A DNA stretch of 64,000 nucleotides from an uncultured Chlorobiota bacterium. Its GTDB lineage: Bacteria; Bacteroidota; Ignavibacteria; UBA10030; UBA6906. The stretch lies in the NCBI GenBank assembly GCA_900696645.1, contig CAADGV010000024.1, forward strand, positions 62,001 through 126,000, written 5' to 3'. The notes under the pieces were generated by a model that saw only the letters and a list, made by a program, of their open reading frames with translations, made no database searches and was not told the origin of the DNA. Below, piece by piece: positions 5,886 to 13,079 of the stretch. The first letter of the stretch is position 1. The number at the start of each line of letters is the position of its first letter. Position numbers and translations under genes: made by a program.

Positions 5886-6722
5886 CTAATACAACACAAG
5901 CTCAGGCGAGTTCGGAATCAATCCCTTCTCAAATCCTCTCTTGAACAACAACTCAAGGGCTTGCTTCCCCTTCTCGCCCATATCAATCGTCAAGTCGCTT
6001 ACATACATCTTCACAAACTTCTCGCCGAGCGTGTAGTCAATTCCTCGTCCCCATTGCATAGCGTAGGGAATCGATTCGTCCTGGTGATTGTAGCCGTATG
6101 CAATACTTGCCTTCAAGCCTTCAGAAAGTTTCCTTGCCATCGCTTCGCCTAAATCCTTCCGTGCAACATCAAGTCCGAGGGGAAGAGGCAGCCCGTTGGT
6201 TTCTTTCTCCCAGAATTCGCCAAAGTCGAGAATCTTGTTATAGCCCAGTGATTGGTATGTGATCTGCCCCTCATGAATGAGCAGGCCGGCGTCAACATCG
6301 CCGCTATCGACTGCTTCCATGATCTTGTCGAACGGCATGTCGATATTGTTGATGCCTTCGGTGAATGTTTTGAAGAGCAGTGTTGCCGTTGTAAGCGGGC
6401 CGGGCGTGCCAACTGTCTTTCCCTTCAAGTCATTCAGGGACTTGTATTTGCGGGAGATGATCACCGGGCCGTATCCTTCCCCCATGCTTGCGCCGGTTTT
6501 CATGATCCAGTATTTGTCGGCAACGTAAGGAAACGCATGAGCGGAAATCGCCGTCACTTCAAGTTCTGCTTTCATTGCGCGTTCGTTCAATGACTGAATA
6601 TCTTCAAGAAGATGTTCGATGACGATGCCGTCAAGCTTCACTTTGCCGCTGGCAAGTCCGTAGAACATGAATGCATCGTCGGGGTCGGGACTGTGTCCGA
6701 CTTTGATTATTCTCTCTGCCAT
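5886..6722 (-). CDS. mqnD: 1,4-dihydroxy-6-naphthoate synthase (futalosine pathway)
   Basis: MqnD turns cyclic dehypoxanthine futalosine into 1,4-dihydroxy-6-naphthoate in the alternative menaquinone pathway. It has a periplasmic-binding-like fold. The 278-residue protein begins 'MAERIIKVGHSPDPDDAFMF', typical of MqnD. It also contains 'AISAHAFPYV' and 'TPGPLTTATLL', and 'LLIHEGQITY' holds the catalytic-type His. I chose the ATG at 6722 because the longer frame to 6797 would overlap the upstream ubiE stop and add an unrelated peptide. It lies 43 bases downstream of ubiE on the same strand. Confidence 0.93.
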   Translation of the reverse strand: MAERIIKVGHSPDPDDAFMFYGLASGKVKLDGIVIEHLLEDIQSLNERAMKAELEVTAISAHAFPYVADKYWIMKTGASMGEGYGPVIISRKYKSLNDLKGKTVGTPGPLTTATLLFKTFTEGINNIDMPFDKIMEAVDSGDVDAGLLIHEGQITYQSLGYNKILDFGEFWEKETNGLPLPLGLDVARKDLGEAMARKLSEGLKASIAYGYNHQDESIPYAMQWGRGIDYTLGEKFVKMYVSDLTIDMGEKGKQALELLFKRGFEKGLIPNSPELVLY

Positions 6723-6765
6723 AAGTCTTGTTGATGGTTGAAGGAAATTGTCGAACTGATAGATG

Positions 6766-7458
6766 TTATTTCTTCGCGCCGCAATAAATCGTAACAATGC
6801 CGAATGTCAATCTCTCCTCTTTCAACTCCGCAAATCCTACCTTCCGCAGGATGTTGAGAAAGTCATTTCCTTCGGGGAACTTCATCACTGTGTCCGGGAG
6901 ATATGTGTAGGCTTCCTTGTGTCGGGAAACGATTCTGCCGACAAGCGGAAGAACCGACTTGAAATAGAAAAAATACAGTTGATTGAACGGAAACGTTCCC
7001 GGTCGTGAAAACTCCAGCACAACAATTTTCCCTCCCGGACGGAGGATGCGGTTCATCTCCGCCAGGCCCTGCTCGAGATGCTCGAAGTTGCGAGCACCGA
7101 ACGCAACAATCGCCGCGTCAAAGGAACCCGTCTCGAACCCGAGATGTTCGGCCTCGCCGGTTTGCAACGTAATCGTCGAGTCAAGCCCGCGCTTCTGCAG
7201 TTTCGCCCTGCCGATCTTCAGCATCTCTTCGGCAATATCAACCCCGATCACTTCCTGAGGGTTCAGCCGAAGCGTGGCGATGGCAAAATCTGCCGTTCCT
7301 GTTGCAACGTCGAGAATTCTTCTTGGCCGAATGTCCTTGAGATACTGCACCGCCCTGCGCCGCCAATAGAAATCAATTCCTCCGCTTAACAGGTGGTTGA
7401 GAAGATCGTAGCGATACGCGATAGAATCAAAAAGAGAACGGACGTACTGTTTTTCCAA
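6766..7458 (-). CDS. ubiE: Demethylmenaquinone methyltransferase
   Basis: This SAM-dependent C-methyltransferase (MenG/UbiE) makes menaquinone from demethylmenaquinone. The 230-residue protein has the family N-terminus 'VRSLFDSIAYRYDLLNHLLS', SAM motif I 'LDVATGTADFA', 'GVDIAEEML', and the UbiE signatures 'AFGARNFEHLEQGL' and 'RILRPGGKIVVLEFS'. It is the first gene of a ubiE-mqnD unit, which places the last step of menaquinone synthesis beside an earlier futalosine step. A promoter candidate lies at 7490-7517. Confidence 0.95.
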   Translation of the reverse strand: MEKQYVRSLFDSIAYRYDLLNHLLSGGIDFYWRRRAVQYLKDIRPRRILDVATGTADFAIATLRLNPQEVIGVDIAEEMLKIGRAKLQKRGLDSTITLQTGEAEHLGFETGSFDAAIVAFGARNFEHLEQGLAEMNRILRPGGKIVVLEFSRPGTFPFNQLYFFYFKSVLPLVGRIVSRHKEAYTYLPDTVMKFPEGNDFLNILRKVGFAELKEERLTFGIVTIYCGAKK

Positions 7459-7588: not shown

Positions 7589-8689
7589 ATGTCAAAGATT
7601 ACAGTTCATCTTGCGCAAACTGTCGACCGTTCGTACCGGATTGAAGTGAAGCCGGGGGCGCTTGATAGCCTCGCTGCGTTCATTCTACGCCAACGTCGCG
7701 GGTCGAAAGTCTTTATCATAACTGACTCCAACGTTGAGATGTTGGTGGGAAGAAAGATTCAGAGAAAGATGTATGAAGCGGGTCTCGAGACGCTGCTGCT
7801 GAGTTTTCCTGCAGGCGAGAAGTCAAAGAACCAGCGTATTGTTCATGCTCTGCATACGCAACTCCTTGCCGGTGATATTCGCCGGGATAGCCTCATTGTC
7901 GCCCTTGGTGGCGGCGTTGTGGGGGATGTTGCAGGTTACGTTGCCGCGACAATCTCGAGGGGAGTCGCCTTCATTCAAGTGCCGACAACGCTGCTCTCGC
8001 AAGTCGACAGCAGCGTCGGCGGCAAGGTTGGCATCAATCATCCTCGCGGAAAGAACCTGATCGGAGCATTTCATCAGCCGATGGCGGTATTTGTTGACCC
8101 CGATGTGTTGAGAACCCTGCCGCAACGCGAATTCTGCAGCGGCCTTGCTGAAGTGGTAAAGATTGCCGCCGCTCTTGACAGACGATTGTTTCAGTTTCTT
8201 GAACGAAATGCCCATCGTGTGTCGAAATCAAATCCGAAACTTCTGACAGAGATCATTTCGCGATGTGTTGCGCTCAAGGCGGCTGTTGTCGAGGCGGATG
8301 AGTTCGAATCAGGATTGCGAAGGTCGCTCAATCTCGGCCACACAATCGGCCACGCCATTGAATCGTCAACGAACTATTCCATCAATCACGGGGAAGCTGT
8401 GGCTATCGGCCTTGTTACGGAATCGACGGTTGCTCATCGGATGGGATTGCTTTCTTCACGTGAACTTGACAGACTCATCTCGCTTCTGAAAAAGCTGGGC
8501 CTGCCGACAGGTATGCCGCAGCTTCGCAACACAACGAAGTTTTTCTCTTCATTGTCTGCGGACAAGAAATCCGTCGGGGGGCGTGCAAAGTACGTGTTGC
8601 TCTCCGCAATCGGAAGCTGTGTTATAGGTGTCGACGTGTCGACGACTCTTGTTCAGAACGTGGTGATGGAAAGCAGGCGAGTTCGCTGA
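7589..8689 (+). CDS. aroB: 3-dehydroquinate synthase
   Basis: This NAD- and metal-dependent cyclase is the second step of the shikimate pathway. The 366-residue protein carries the glycine-rich 'ALGGGVVGDVAGYVAAT', 'QVPTTLLSQVDSSVGGKVGIN', 'GLAEVVKIAA', and the metal-binding segment 'LNLGHTIGHAIE'. It is the first gene of a five-gene unit. Its TGA shares a base with the next ATG (TGATG at 8687-8691). The start at 7589 gives the usual family length. The upstream region is shared with the divergent ubiE. Confidence 0.95.
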   Translation: MSKITVHLAQTVDRSYRIEVKPGALDSLAAFILRQRRGSKVFIITDSNVEMLVGRKIQRKMYEAGLETLLLSFPAGEKSKNQRIVHALHTQLLAGDIRRDSLIVALGGGVVGDVAGYVAATISRGVAFIQVPTTLLSQVDSSVGGKVGINHPRGKNLIGAFHQPMAVFVDPDVLRTLPQREFCSGLAEVVKIAAALDRRLFQFLERNAHRVSKSNPKLLTEIISRCVALKAAVVEADEFESGLRRSLNLGHTIGHAIESSTNYSINHGEAVAIGLVTESTVAHRMGLLSSRELDRLISLLKKLGLPTGMPQLRNTTKFFSSLSADKKSVGGRAKYVLLSAIGSCVIGVDVSTTLVQNVVMESRRVR

Positions 8690-10143
8690 TGATTATTGTG
8701 TCGATAACGGGACCCGGAATGAAGGATGCGCTTGGACAGATTGCCGCCTCATCTCAATATGCGGACATGTTCGAATTGCGTCTTGATATGATTCAGGAGC
8801 CGCCTCTCGGCATGCTGATGGCGGCAACCGGCAAGCCGATTATTGCCACATGTCGACCTGATTGGGAGGGCGGTGAATTTCGTGAAACGGAATCAGAACG
8901 GGCCGAAATTCTTCATGCAGCAGCGGAACTCGGCGCAGCGTACGTTGATATTGAACTGAATGCAGATGCAGGAATTATACGCAGACTTCACGGCGACGGG
9001 CGTCGTCTCATTCTCTCCTATCATCACAACGGGAAAGGCAAGCTTGATATAGCAAGAATGTACAGGCGCATGAAATCGCCTCACGCACATGTATTGAAGC
9101 TTGCATACACTGCGGAAGATTGTGCTGATATAAAGTACGCATTCGAGTTTCTCCAACTTGCCAAACAGGACAAGCAAAGAGCTATAGCTATTGCCATGGG
9201 AGAATTCGGCGAGCCGACGAGAATTCTCTACAAGAAATTCGGAGGATGGGCAACGTACGCATCGGCGGGTATTGGCCTAAGTGCCGCTGCCGGACAAATT
9301 CCCGCTGCCGAATTGAGAGAACTGTATCGATCTGAAAGAATCTCCGGCAAGACAAAGGTCTTCGGAGTGGTCGGTAATCCGTTGAAGCAAAGTAAAGGTA
9401 TTTACCTGCACAATCCGCTTTATCAGAAAGCTAAGAAGGATGCCGTGTATTGCAGATTTCAAGTGAGGGATCTGAATTCGTACATGAAGCGTGTGGCGCC
9501 GGTGTTGAACGGTTTCAGTGTTACAATTCCTCACAAGCAATCGATCATCAAGTATCTGGATCGAATTGATCCGACAGCTAAAGCCATCGGTGCCGTGAAT
9601 ACAGTTATGCGCAAAGCGGGCAGGTTGTATGGAACAAACACGGACGCTCCGGGCGCTCTTGATGCCATAGAAAACGTACTGAAGGTCAAAGGAAAGAGCA
9701 TGCTGATTGCCGGGGCCGGCGGAGCGGCTCGTGCAATTGCATATGAAGCAAAACAACGCGGAGCAAAGATTTTCTTGACTAACAGAACCGAATCAACAGG
9801 ACGGAAACTTGCTACGGAATTCAACGTGGATTTTGTTTCAAAGACCGAGCTTCTTCGTGCCGCACGAAAGGGTGTACGATATGATATTATTGTCAACGCC
9901 ACATCAGTAGGTATGACGCCGCATGTGAATGCATCACCTCTTCCCAAATCTATTCTCAAAAAGGCAATCGTGTTCGATGCAGTGTACAATCCTCCTATGA
10001 CGAAATTGTTACGGGATGCAAAGAATGCAGGCGCTATGATTGTTCAAGGGACAGAGATGTATTTCAATCAGGCGGCGCTGCAGTTTGAATTGTACGCGGG
10101 CGTGAAGCCCGGAATCTCAACAATGAGGAAAATCCTTTCATAA
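8689..10143 (+). CDS. aroDE: Bifunctional 3-dehydroquinate dehydratase / shikimate dehydrogenase
   Basis: One chain holds two consecutive shikimate-pathway enzymes. Residues about 1-210 are a type I dehydroquinase: 'FELRLDMIQEP', the catalytic His of 'LILSYHHNG', and the Schiff-base Lys probably in 'HVLKLAYTAED'. Residues about 220-484 are an AroE dehydrogenase: 'FGVVGNPLKQSKG', 'SVTIPHKQ' with its catalytic Lys, 'GAVNTVMR', 'TNTDAPG', a nucleotide-binding 'IAGAGGAARAI', and 'NATSVGMTP'. This D-E order is known from plants and chlamydiae; most bacteria have separate genes. It overlaps aroB by one base. Confidence 0.95.
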   Translation: MIIVSITGPGMKDALGQIAASSQYADMFELRLDMIQEPPLGMLMAATGKPIIATCRPDWEGGEFRETESERAEILHAAAELGAAYVDIELNADAGIIRRLHGDGRRLILSYHHNGKGKLDIARMYRRMKSPHAHVLKLAYTAEDCADIKYAFEFLQLAKQDKQRAIAIAMGEFGEPTRILYKKFGGWATYASAGIGLSAAAGQIPAAELRELYRSERISGKTKVFGVVGNPLKQSKGIYLHNPLYQKAKKDAVYCRFQVRDLNSYMKRVAPVLNGFSVTIPHKQSIIKYLDRIDPTAKAIGAVNTVMRKAGRLYGTNTDAPGALDAIENVLKVKGKSMLIAGAGGAARAIAYEAKQRGAKIFLTNRTESTGRKLATEFNVDFVSKTELLRAARKGVRYDIIVNATSVGMTPHVNASPLPKSILKKAIVFDAVYNPPMTKLLRDAKNAGAMIVQGTEMYFNQAALQFELYAGVKPGISTMRKILS

Positions 10144-10151
10144 GGCGGGAA

Positions 10152-10454
10152 ATGCTGAAACACATTGTCATGTGGAAGTTCAAGGAAACGGCGGAAAGGA
10201 CAAGCAAAGAGGAGAATCTGCGGAAGGCAAAAGAGCTTCTTGACTTGCTGCCGTCGCAGATTCCTGCCATCGGCGGCTTTGAAGTCGGGATTGATATACT
10301 GCATTCCGACTCGTCTTACGATTTGGTATTGAATTCGTCTTTCAAAAACAGAGACGATCTTGTCGCATATCAGACGCATCCGTCGCATGTGAAAGTGGTC
10401 GAGTTTCTTCGCAAAGTGCAAATTGGGAAAGCCGTCGTTGATTACGTCGTGTAG
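10152..10454 (+). CDS. Dabb (stress-responsive A/B barrel) domain protein
   Basis: This 100-residue single-domain protein has the Dabb signature: 'MLKHIVMWKFKETAE' at the N-terminus, a middle strand 'YDLVLNSSFKNRDDL', and 'YQTHPSHVKVVEFLRKV' near the end. Members are small dimeric ferredoxin-like barrels whose function is mostly unknown; a few are cyclases or stress proteins. It lies 8 bases after aroDE (GGCGGG ribosome site) and ends directly against the aroA start, so it is expressed with the shikimate genes. A role in the pathway is only suggested by position. Confidence 0.88.
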   Translation: MLKHIVMWKFKETAERTSKEENLRKAKELLDLLPSQIPAIGGFEVGIDILHSDSSYDLVLNSSFKNRDDLVAYQTHPSHVKVVEFLRKVQIGKAVVDYVV

Positions 10455-11717
10455 ATGATTCGAGAAATCCATCCATTGAGGAGGCCGGTCAATGCCGGTA
10501 TTCACGTGCCCGGCTCGAAAAGCCTGACAAACAGGGCACTCATCTGCGCAGCTTTGGCGAAAGGCGAATCTACGCTCAACAATGCATCGGACAGCGACGA
10601 TACATCGCTGATGCGAAACGGGCTGAATCAGCTTGGCGTACTCGTTCGAAAGAAGGATGATACACTCATTGTCGAAGGCACGGGCGGGAAAGTGTACGCG
10701 CCCAAATTCCCCATTCCCGTCGGTAACGCGGGAACGACACTACGGTTTCTGCTCTCGTTAGCCGCGCTTGCCCCAGGTAAGACAGTTCTCGACGGGAGTG
10801 AGCGGATGGCTGCGCGTCCAATTGATGATTTGACGAGTTCCCTTGCGGCACTCGGCACGGAGGTCGGGTTCTCGCCTCATCAAGCACGCTACGTCGTAAA
10901 TGGCGGCTCGTTCGTCGGTGGCAAAACTAAACTTGATGCCTCAAGAAGTTCTCAGTTTCTGTCGTCGCTGTTGATGGTGGCACCGTATGCAACCGAGGAC
11001 GTACAAATCGAAGTGGCGGGAGAGATTTCTTCTGCTCCGTATGTTCAGCTCACGTTGCAGGTTATGCGTGAGTTCGGGGTGAATGTGGAGCATTTAGCAG
11101 GCGACTGCTTTGTGGTCAGGGCAGGCCAGAGATATATCCCGACATCATTTGCAGTAGAGGCGGATGCATCGAGCGCGACGTACTTCCTTGCGGCAGCGGC
11201 ACTGTGTAGCGGAGACATCCTTGTAGAGGGTGTCAGACGTGATACGTTGCAAGCGGATGCAAACTTTGTCAACATATTGCATCAGATGGGATGTAGGATC
11301 GAGCATGAGGAAAGGGGCGTTAGACTCAATAGCAACGGACGGCTTCAGGGTGTTGATGTTAGCATGAATTCCATGCCCGATGCCGTGCCAACGCTTGTTG
11401 TAACAGCATTGTTCGCCGAAGGGACGACGCGTATCAGAAACATTTCCCATCTTCGTCATAAGGAATCTGACAGGCTTCATGCAATGGAGACTGAACTGAA
11501 AAAACTCGGCGCTGAAATCAGTGTGTATGATGATCGGGTAGATATCAATCCCTCGATATTGTCGGGTGGTGTTCTGGATACGTACGATGATCATCGTTTG
11601 GCGATGGCCTTCGCGCTAATCGGTTTGAAGGTAGATGGCGTAAAGATAGATAATCCGGCTTGCGTGAGGAAATCTTTTCCGCAATTCTGGACGGAATTCG
11701 ACAAGCTATACTGTTAA
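10455..11717 (+). CDS. aroA: 5-enolpyruvylshikimate-3-phosphate synthase
   Basis: AroA transfers enolpyruvate from PEP to shikimate-3-phosphate, the sixth shikimate step. The 420-residue protein shows 'PGSKSLTNRALICAALA', the PEP-site 'GNAGTTLRFLLSLAAL', 'DGSERMAARPI', 'SSQFLSSLLM', 'RHKESDRLHAMETEL' and 'YDDHRLAMAFAL'. It has Gly-Asn-Ala-Gly-Thr-Thr at the PEP site. Its ATG follows the stop of the Dabb gene with no gap. It ends 6 bases before aroC. No shikimate kinase (aroK) is in this cluster. Confidence 0.96.
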   Translation: MIREIHPLRRPVNAGIHVPGSKSLTNRALICAALAKGESTLNNASDSDDTSLMRNGLNQLGVLVRKKDDTLIVEGTGGKVYAPKFPIPVGNAGTTLRFLLSLAALAPGKTVLDGSERMAARPIDDLTSSLAALGTEVGFSPHQARYVVNGGSFVGGKTKLDASRSSQFLSSLLMVAPYATEDVQIEVAGEISSAPYVQLTLQVMREFGVNVEHLAGDCFVVRAGQRYIPTSFAVEADASSATYFLAAAALCSGDILVEGVRRDTLQADANFVNILHQMGCRIEHEERGVRLNSNGRLQGVDVSMNSMPDAVPTLVVTALFAEGTTRIRNISHLRHKESDRLHAMETELKKLGAEISVYDDRVDINPSILSGGVLDTYDDHRLAMAFALIGLKVDGVKIDNPACVRKSFPQFWTEFDKLYC

Positions 11718-11723
11718 AAAGAC

Positions 11724-13079
11724 ATGGCTGGAAACACATACGGAACACAATTCAGAATCACAACGTTTGGCGAAAGCCACGGCCGTGCAATCGGCGTTGT
11801 TATGGATGGCGTACGGCCCGGACTGCCGATTGATACGGATTTCATTCAGAAGGAACTCGATCGTCGCCGCCCCGGACAAAGCAAGGTCACAACTGCGCGC
11901 AATGAGTCTGATGCAGTTGAAATTCTCAGCGGGGTATTTGAAGGAAAAACTACCGGCACGCCGATCTGCATGATCATCTGGAACAAAGACCAGCAGTCAA
12001 AGCCGTATGAAAAGATCAAGGAGTTGTTTCGTCCCGGTCATGCCGGATACACGTATCTCGCCAAGTACGGAGTAAGCGATTATCGGGGCGGCGGACGTTC
12101 ATCAGGCAGGGAAACAGCATCGCGGGTTGCCGCGGGAGCTGTTGCCAAATCTCTCCTCGCGAAGCGGGGCATTCATATTCTTGCGTACACAAAAGAAGTC
12201 GCGGGCATCGGAGGTCGAAGGATCAATCCCGACTTCATCGAGAAGAATCCACTTCGCGCCGCCGATCCTGAAGCAGCAAGAAAAATGGAGCGCAAAATCT
12301 TACAAGCGAAAACAGACGGCGACTCGGTCGGCGGAATTGTTGAAATAATTGTGAAGAATGTTCCCGTCGGGCTCGGCGAGCCGGTGTTCGACAAGCTCGA
12401 AGCAGATCTCGCGAAAGCGCTTATGTCGATCGGGGCGATCAAGGGATTTGAAGTAGGGAATGGCTTTGAGGCTGCGCGCCTAAACGGGAGTGAGAACAAC
12501 GACTCGATGTATTTCGATAAGAAATCCCGTCGTGTACGCACAAGAACAAACAATGCCGGCGGTATTTCCGGTGGCATTTCCAACGGCGAAGACATTGTTC
12601 TGCGAATCGCCGTTAAACCTCCATCATCCATCCTCAAGAAACAGCGAACAGTCACGGTGAAAGGAAGGGCAGCGACAATTTCCGTTGAAGGCCGCCACGA
12701 TCCGTGCATCTGTCCCCGCGTAGTGCCCGTTGCCGAATCAATGGTAGCCCTCACGCTACTCGACCATCTTACCCGCCAACAAATCTTGAGAAGCAAAACG
12801 ACCTTGCAGGCGTTGAGGGATGATATCGATCTGCTTGACCATAACATCCTTTTGTTGATTGCCGAGCGGCAGAGATTTGTCGAGCAGGTTGGAATTCTGA
12901 AAAAGAAAAAAGGCAGGAACATTCACGATGCAGGGCGTGAGAAACAGATTCTTGCAAAACAGCTTGCTGCAGGCACCGCACTCGGGCTGGACCAAGAATT
13001 CGTGAGAGAAATTTGTTCGGCTATCTTCAATCTTGCAAAATCGACACAGCGAAAGCTCAACGCCGGCTTGTTGAAGTAA
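11724..13079 (+). CDS. aroC: Chorismate synthase fused to chorismate mutase
   Basis: Residues about 1-355 are chorismate synthase (FMN-dependent): 'TFGESHGRAIGVVMDGV', 'RPGHAGYTYLAKYGVSDYR', 'GGGRSSGRETASRVAAG' and 'NNAGGISGGISNGEDI'. Residues about 359-451 are an AroQ-type chorismate mutase: 'ALRDDIDLLDHNILLLIAER' gives the first two active-site Arg, followed by Lys in 'VGILKKKKG' and Arg in 'HDAGREKQI'. The joint 'LTRQQILRSKTTLQ' is in frame with no stop or start between, so this is one polypeptide. It would pass chorismate towards prephenate (Phe/Tyr). It is the last gene of the aro unit. Confidence 0.93.
   Translation: MAGNTYGTQFRITTFGESHGRAIGVVMDGVRPGLPIDTDFIQKELDRRRPGQSKVTTARNESDAVEILSGVFEGKTTGTPICMIIWNKDQQSKPYEKIKELFRPGHAGYTYLAKYGVSDYRGGGRSSGRETASRVAAGAVAKSLLAKRGIHILAYTKEVAGIGGRRINPDFIEKNPLRAADPEAARKMERKILQAKTDGDSVGGIVEIIVKNVPVGLGEPVFDKLEADLAKALMSIGAIKGFEVGNGFEAARLNGSENNDSMYFDKKSRRVRTRTNNAGGISGGISNGEDIVLRIAVKPPSSILKKQRTVTVKGRAATISVEGRHDPCICPRVVPVAESMVALTLLDHLTRQQILRSKTTLQALRDDIDLLDHNILLLIAERQRFVEQVGILKKKKGRNIHDAGREKQILAKQLAAGTALGLDQEFVREICSAIFNLAKSTQRKLNAGLLK

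Follow-up and report, generated by a model that had tools for sequence, protein, structure and literature searches.

The aroC-CM gene, at positions 11724-13079 (forward strand) of the window, i.e., the whole stretch of 64,000 nucleotides that was analysed, links, to judge from its sequence, the final reaction of the common aromatic pathway with the one that opens the branch to phenylalanine. Its product is very probably a bifunctional enzyme of the aromatic pathway and the only chorismate mutase of the cell, arisen once and decayed in those lineages where it became superfluous; both activities, the order of events and the reason for the fusion are what we infer here.

Architecture of the fused protein

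The gene consists of a single open frame of 451 codons, uninterrupted up to its TAA stop. Only two Pfam domains occur on the chain, Chorismate_synt (PF01264), which covers residues 10-349 (480 bits, E 3.4e-144), and CM_2 (PF01817), which covers residues 364-442 (64 bits, E 1.4e-17) and positions 1-79 of the 80 in the profile. Both matches are essentially full length and lie far above the cut-off of 27 bits common to the two profiles, and no DAHP synthase or prephenate dehydratase domain was found on the chain by Pfam. The first-pass annotation, which had read a full AroC and a full chorismate mutase in one frame and had proposed a domain search as a check, was correct in this respect, and the motifs that it named are present. 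Both halves are predicted to be ordinary known enzymes.

The chorismate synthase (AroC) part, made of residues 1-353 (11724-12782, forward strand), matches TIGR00033 with 466 bits for a cut-off of 212, and among the solved structures it resembles the chorismate synthases of P. aeruginosa and A. baumannii over its entire length. With respect to NCBIfam, the aroC equivalogs match, together with many chorismate mutase models that remain below their own equivalog cut-offs. The alignment of the fused proteins (alignment A1) displays the GESHG and DYRGGGRSS motifs, and H19, located in GESHG, and H106, the catalytic histidine pair of the family, are invariant in 20 fused relatives. Enzymes of the AroC family convert EPSP to chorismate with reduced FMN and are tetrameric, whereas AroQ chorismate mutases are intertwined dimers.

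The AroQ-type mutase part, residues 364-442 (12813-13049, forward strand), lies within a region (residues 357-444) that matches the E. coli mutase (PDB code 1ECM). The residues R11, R28, K39, D48, R51, E52 and Q88 of E. coli, which make up the AroQ active-site set, align with R365, R382, K393, D402, R405, E406 and Q442, respectively. All of these are invariant across the 20 fused proteins, apart from D402, which is nearly so, and the identity of the mutase parts to that of the window goes down to one third. In the predicted structure, a monomer model built from only 20 input sequences, with a mean pLDDT of 71 (moderate confidence overall), the mutase part forms the three AroQ helices (residues 360-396, 403-419 and 424-446) and superposes on 1ECM (chain 1ecm_A) with an rmsd of 0.9 A and a TM score of 0.95 of the target. 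The last AroC helix spans residues 330-355, so that the linker to helix 1 of the mutase would comprise only a few residues; the junction defined from the model and alignment A1 corresponds to residues 354-363 (12783-12812, forward strand).

Operon context and mutase content of the genome

The aroC-CM gene is the last of a tight operon ordered aroB, aroD-aroE, Dabb, aroA and aroC-CM on the forward strand, in which neighbouring genes either share one base or are separated by gaps within 10 bases. The first gene, aroB (7589-8689; TIGR01357, 385 bits), has one base in common with an aroD-aroE fusion (8689-10143; DHquinase_I and Shikimate_dh_N), followed by a gene coding for a stress-responsive alpha/beta barrel (Dabb) protein (10152-10454; PF07876, 86 bits) and by aroA (10455-11717; TIGR01356, 428 bits), which lies 6 bases upstream of aroC-CM. 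The Dabb gene occupies the same place in three other genomes (G001, G007 and G018) and was not seen in most relatives. The region 5886-7458, divergent from the operon, harbours menaquinone genes, i.e., members of the VitK2_biosynth family (MqnA/MqnD type) and a UbiE/MenG methyltransferase; the futalosine route also begins at chorismate.

In most relatives the gene next to the fusion is tyrA, the start of which overlaps the stop of the fusion by 4 bases in nearly all genomes where the two are adjacent, and the mutase thus sits between the synthase and the dehydrogenase. In the genus of the window (G000, G001 and G002), no match to PDH_N or to family-specific TyrA profiles occurs genome-wide; tyrA has been lost there and pheA kept, G002 being devoid of prephenate dehydratase. 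The formation of tyrosine by phenylalanine hydroxylase was considered and rejected, since no match to PF00351 was found in this genus.

The genome of the window, rated 100% complete, contains a single chorismate synthase and a single CM_2 match, aroC-CM itself, and no AroH-type mutase was found in it. A redundant mutase, either AroQ or AroH, is therefore rejected, and any synthesis of phenylalanine by the usual route has to proceed via aroC-CM. A stand-alone prephenate dehydratase (PDT) with an ACT domain is encoded on another contig.

Distribution, probable origin and decay of the mutase part

The full in-frame fusion was identified in 21 of 60 related genomes, including that of the window, which span three families of one order. 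A phylum-wide sample yielded the fusion in four of 394 genomes, all four from the order of the window, and within the phylum Calditrichota it occurs in eight of 40 genomes, one of the eight being split over two contigs. The first Calditrichota case (assembly L078) came from a scan of named genomes, with at least this one among the matches listed; the nearest named relatives among the matches listed are Ignavibacteria and Ignavibacteriales metagenome assemblies. No fused protein was found in the plasmid collection.

In a tree of the AroC core, the fused and stub-bearing AroCs of both phyla, together with six plain ones from the order of the window, form one group that stands apart from other Bacteroidota and Klebsiella with a support of 94/65, which is not decisive. 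The mutase tree, based on 93 columns, is compatible with a single origin as well as with several. The AroC tree would fit a single gain with later losses, or a single gain combined with a transfer, and the history that best accounts for the fusion is a single gain and repeated decay, in an order of events reconstructed from these comparisons. Neighbouring aroC and aroQ genes would have been joined once within an operon for aromatic biosynthesis, in an ancestor of the AroC clade common to Ignavibacteria and part of Calditrichota, and an aroC-aroQ-tyrA row that loses its first gene boundary would give such a fusion. A row of this type exists in G057, where separate aroC and CM genes overlap by one base (TAATG); this pair is unsupported as the direct ancestor, its CM grouping with those of DAHP synthase-CM proteins on a long branch.

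In the comparison of the window with its sister species, dN/dS amounts to 0.07 for the mutase part and 0.06 for the synthase part. The mutase part thus appears to be in use, under a purifying selection as strong as that on the synthase part, and the low ratio, together with the invariant active site, leads to the rejection of a degenerate mutase domain. Elsewhere, the C-terminal tail of AroC is a shortened or worn mutase in several lineages, namely in G002 from the genus of the window, in two related genera of its family (g9 and g12), of which four genomes share an identical stub length of 43 residues, in families f19, f21 and f22 of its class, and in G468-G472 from Calditrichota. Loci with such worn tails were located in the two phyla (L051-L055, L065, L068-L072 and L123-L126). 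The stub tails exhibit dN/dS values of 0.5-0.8, with dS near saturation, versus about 0.1 for their own AroC core.

Ten of the 14 stub-bearing rows of the tree possess another mutase, mostly on DAHP synthase, three (G002, G405 and G436) are devoid of mutase, prephenate dehydratase and prephenate dehydrogenase (PDH) alike, and one (G468) contains PDT with no mutase detected. Another mutase, or the loss of PDT and PDH, which was scored in a subset of genomes, hence accompanies 13 of 14 stubs, versus a second mutase in four of 27 intact fusions (Fisher p 1.6e-6, in a test that counts genomes; the independent pairs on branches with good support number only three, which is insufficient for significance); these three contrasts go mostly in the expected direction. 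These four intact fusions occur alongside CM-PDT, which is a weak one in two genomes (G438 and G474) and not in the other two (G022 and G032). Such a pattern is as expected if the AroC-borne mutase is kept when needed and lost when not. The fusion appears to be old, and its mutase part to become dispensable in the presence of another mutase; the arrival of a second mutase, or the loss of phenylalanine and tyrosine synthesis, would let it decay to a stub.

Several other observations were made at these loci. In Calditrichota, L125 and L145 (G468 and G470) carry a worn AroC-borne mutase with none detected elsewhere, and pheA of G468 lies beside aroA-aroC. A three-enzyme PDT-ACT-DAHP synthase-CM fusion of 704 amino acids occurs in family f19 (L073:2478-4589, reverse strand), and a CM, PDT and DAHP synthase protein of 681 amino acids in f7 (L076:5294-7339, forward strand). 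BLAST with the proteins of the window also revealed, at L068 and L073, an aroD-aroE-aroA fusion of 941 residues (G436) and an aroB-aroD-aroE fusion of 821 residues (G381).

Proposed function and comparison with known systems

Most likely, aroC-CM is an obligate bifunctional enzyme that would carry all flux to prephenate. Its N-terminal part would convert EPSP to chorismate and its C-terminal AroQ part chorismate to prephenate, which would feed phenylalanine synthesis via the stand-alone PDT-ACT enzyme and, in most relatives, also tyrosine synthesis via the overlapping tyrA. The benefit of the fusion probably resides in 1:1 co-expression and in chorismate made available close to the mutase.

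The probability that an assembly or frame artefact joined two genes is negligible: nothing speaks directly for it, the overlapping genes of G057 proving just that aroC and CM also exist separately, and more than 25 genomes from two phyla, assembled independently of one another, share the identical in-frame fusion, which excludes the frame error against which the first-pass annotation had cautioned. The first-pass annotation had suggested that the fusion could bias flux to prephenate, to the detriment of tryptophan and folate. In a channelling enzyme, chorismate would move from the synthase to the mutase active site by virtue of the tether, favouring phenylalanine and tyrosine over tryptophan, folate and menaquinone. 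The consecutive steps on one chain, the short linker of the model and the conservation of the fusion where it is the sole mutase are all in line with such a channelling, which nevertheless seems unlikely: a shared tunnel has no structural support in a monomer model, where an oligomer is not visible, and the wearing away of the mutase part where another mutase is present argues against a strong advantage of the tether as such. In addition, the similar CM-CDT fusions gained no kinetic benefit from tethering (PMC10520331), and channelling should therefore not be assumed. It is likewise rather improbable that AroC tetramers carrying mutase dimers intercept nascent chorismate, in such a way that phenylalanine (and tyrosine) would be served first, tryptophan, folate and menaquinone would receive what escapes, and the stubs would mark lineages abandoning the scheme.

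The mutase part could also serve AroC mainly as an appendage with a structural or regulatory role, for example in oligomerisation through helix 1 or in feedback by prephenate. Several lineages retain stubs of helix 1 on AroC, four genomes sharing a length of 43 residues, and the CM domains that regulate some DAHP synthases offer a known precedent (PMC12202928). However, the catalytic residues are invariant in the intact forms, in most stub genomes either another mutase is present or the branch is missing, and the stubs evolve nearly freely, which weakens the case for a strongly kept structural element and makes a mere appendage very unlikely.

Fusions of AroQ with PheA, TyrA, CDT or DAHP synthase are well documented (PMC1173090, PMC10520331 and PMC11237513), and both this literature and the present survey agree with the remark of the first-pass annotation that DAHP synthase and prephenate enzymes are the more frequent fusion partners of the mutase. 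No description of an AroC-AroQ fusion was found in the open-licence literature searched; domain databases may list the architecture, which is reported here as not found described, and not as first seen. In the fusions described in these sources, the partner of the mutase is a downstream enzyme or DAHP synthase, whereas here it makes the substrate of the mutase. The fusion sits at the branch point of the aromatic pathway, is the only mutase in many genera belonging to two phyla, and represents a worked example of a fused domain gained and then repeatedly decayed. Natural fused, stub-bearing and plain AroCs offer a clean test set for the effect of a branch-point tether on flux.

With respect to the known systems, aroC-CM shares its full length, motifs and histidine pair with the AroC family (PF01264, TIGR00033; PDB codes 5z9a, 4lj2 and 1um0), but the matched solved AroCs are devoid of the C-terminal mutase domain. 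It shares the three-helix fold and the Arg/Lys/Glu/Gln active-site set with the AroQ-alpha domain of the E. coli P-protein (1ECM), which is fused to prephenate dehydratase instead of AroC and possesses Ser84 at a position occupied by Ala in the mutase of the window. The DAHP synthase-CM proteins, e.g., from Bacillus, Porphyromonas and Thermus, likewise consist of an AroQ domain tethered to another enzyme of the aromatic pathway and occur in those relatives whose AroC no longer carries the mutase; they join the first step of the pathway to the mutase, whereas aroC-CM joins consecutive steps. Consecutive enzymes are also fused around the mutase in AroQ-PheA, AroQ-TyrA and the exported CM-CDT proteins (PMC10520331), but there the mutase is tied to the downstream enzyme, and in aroC-CM to the upstream one.
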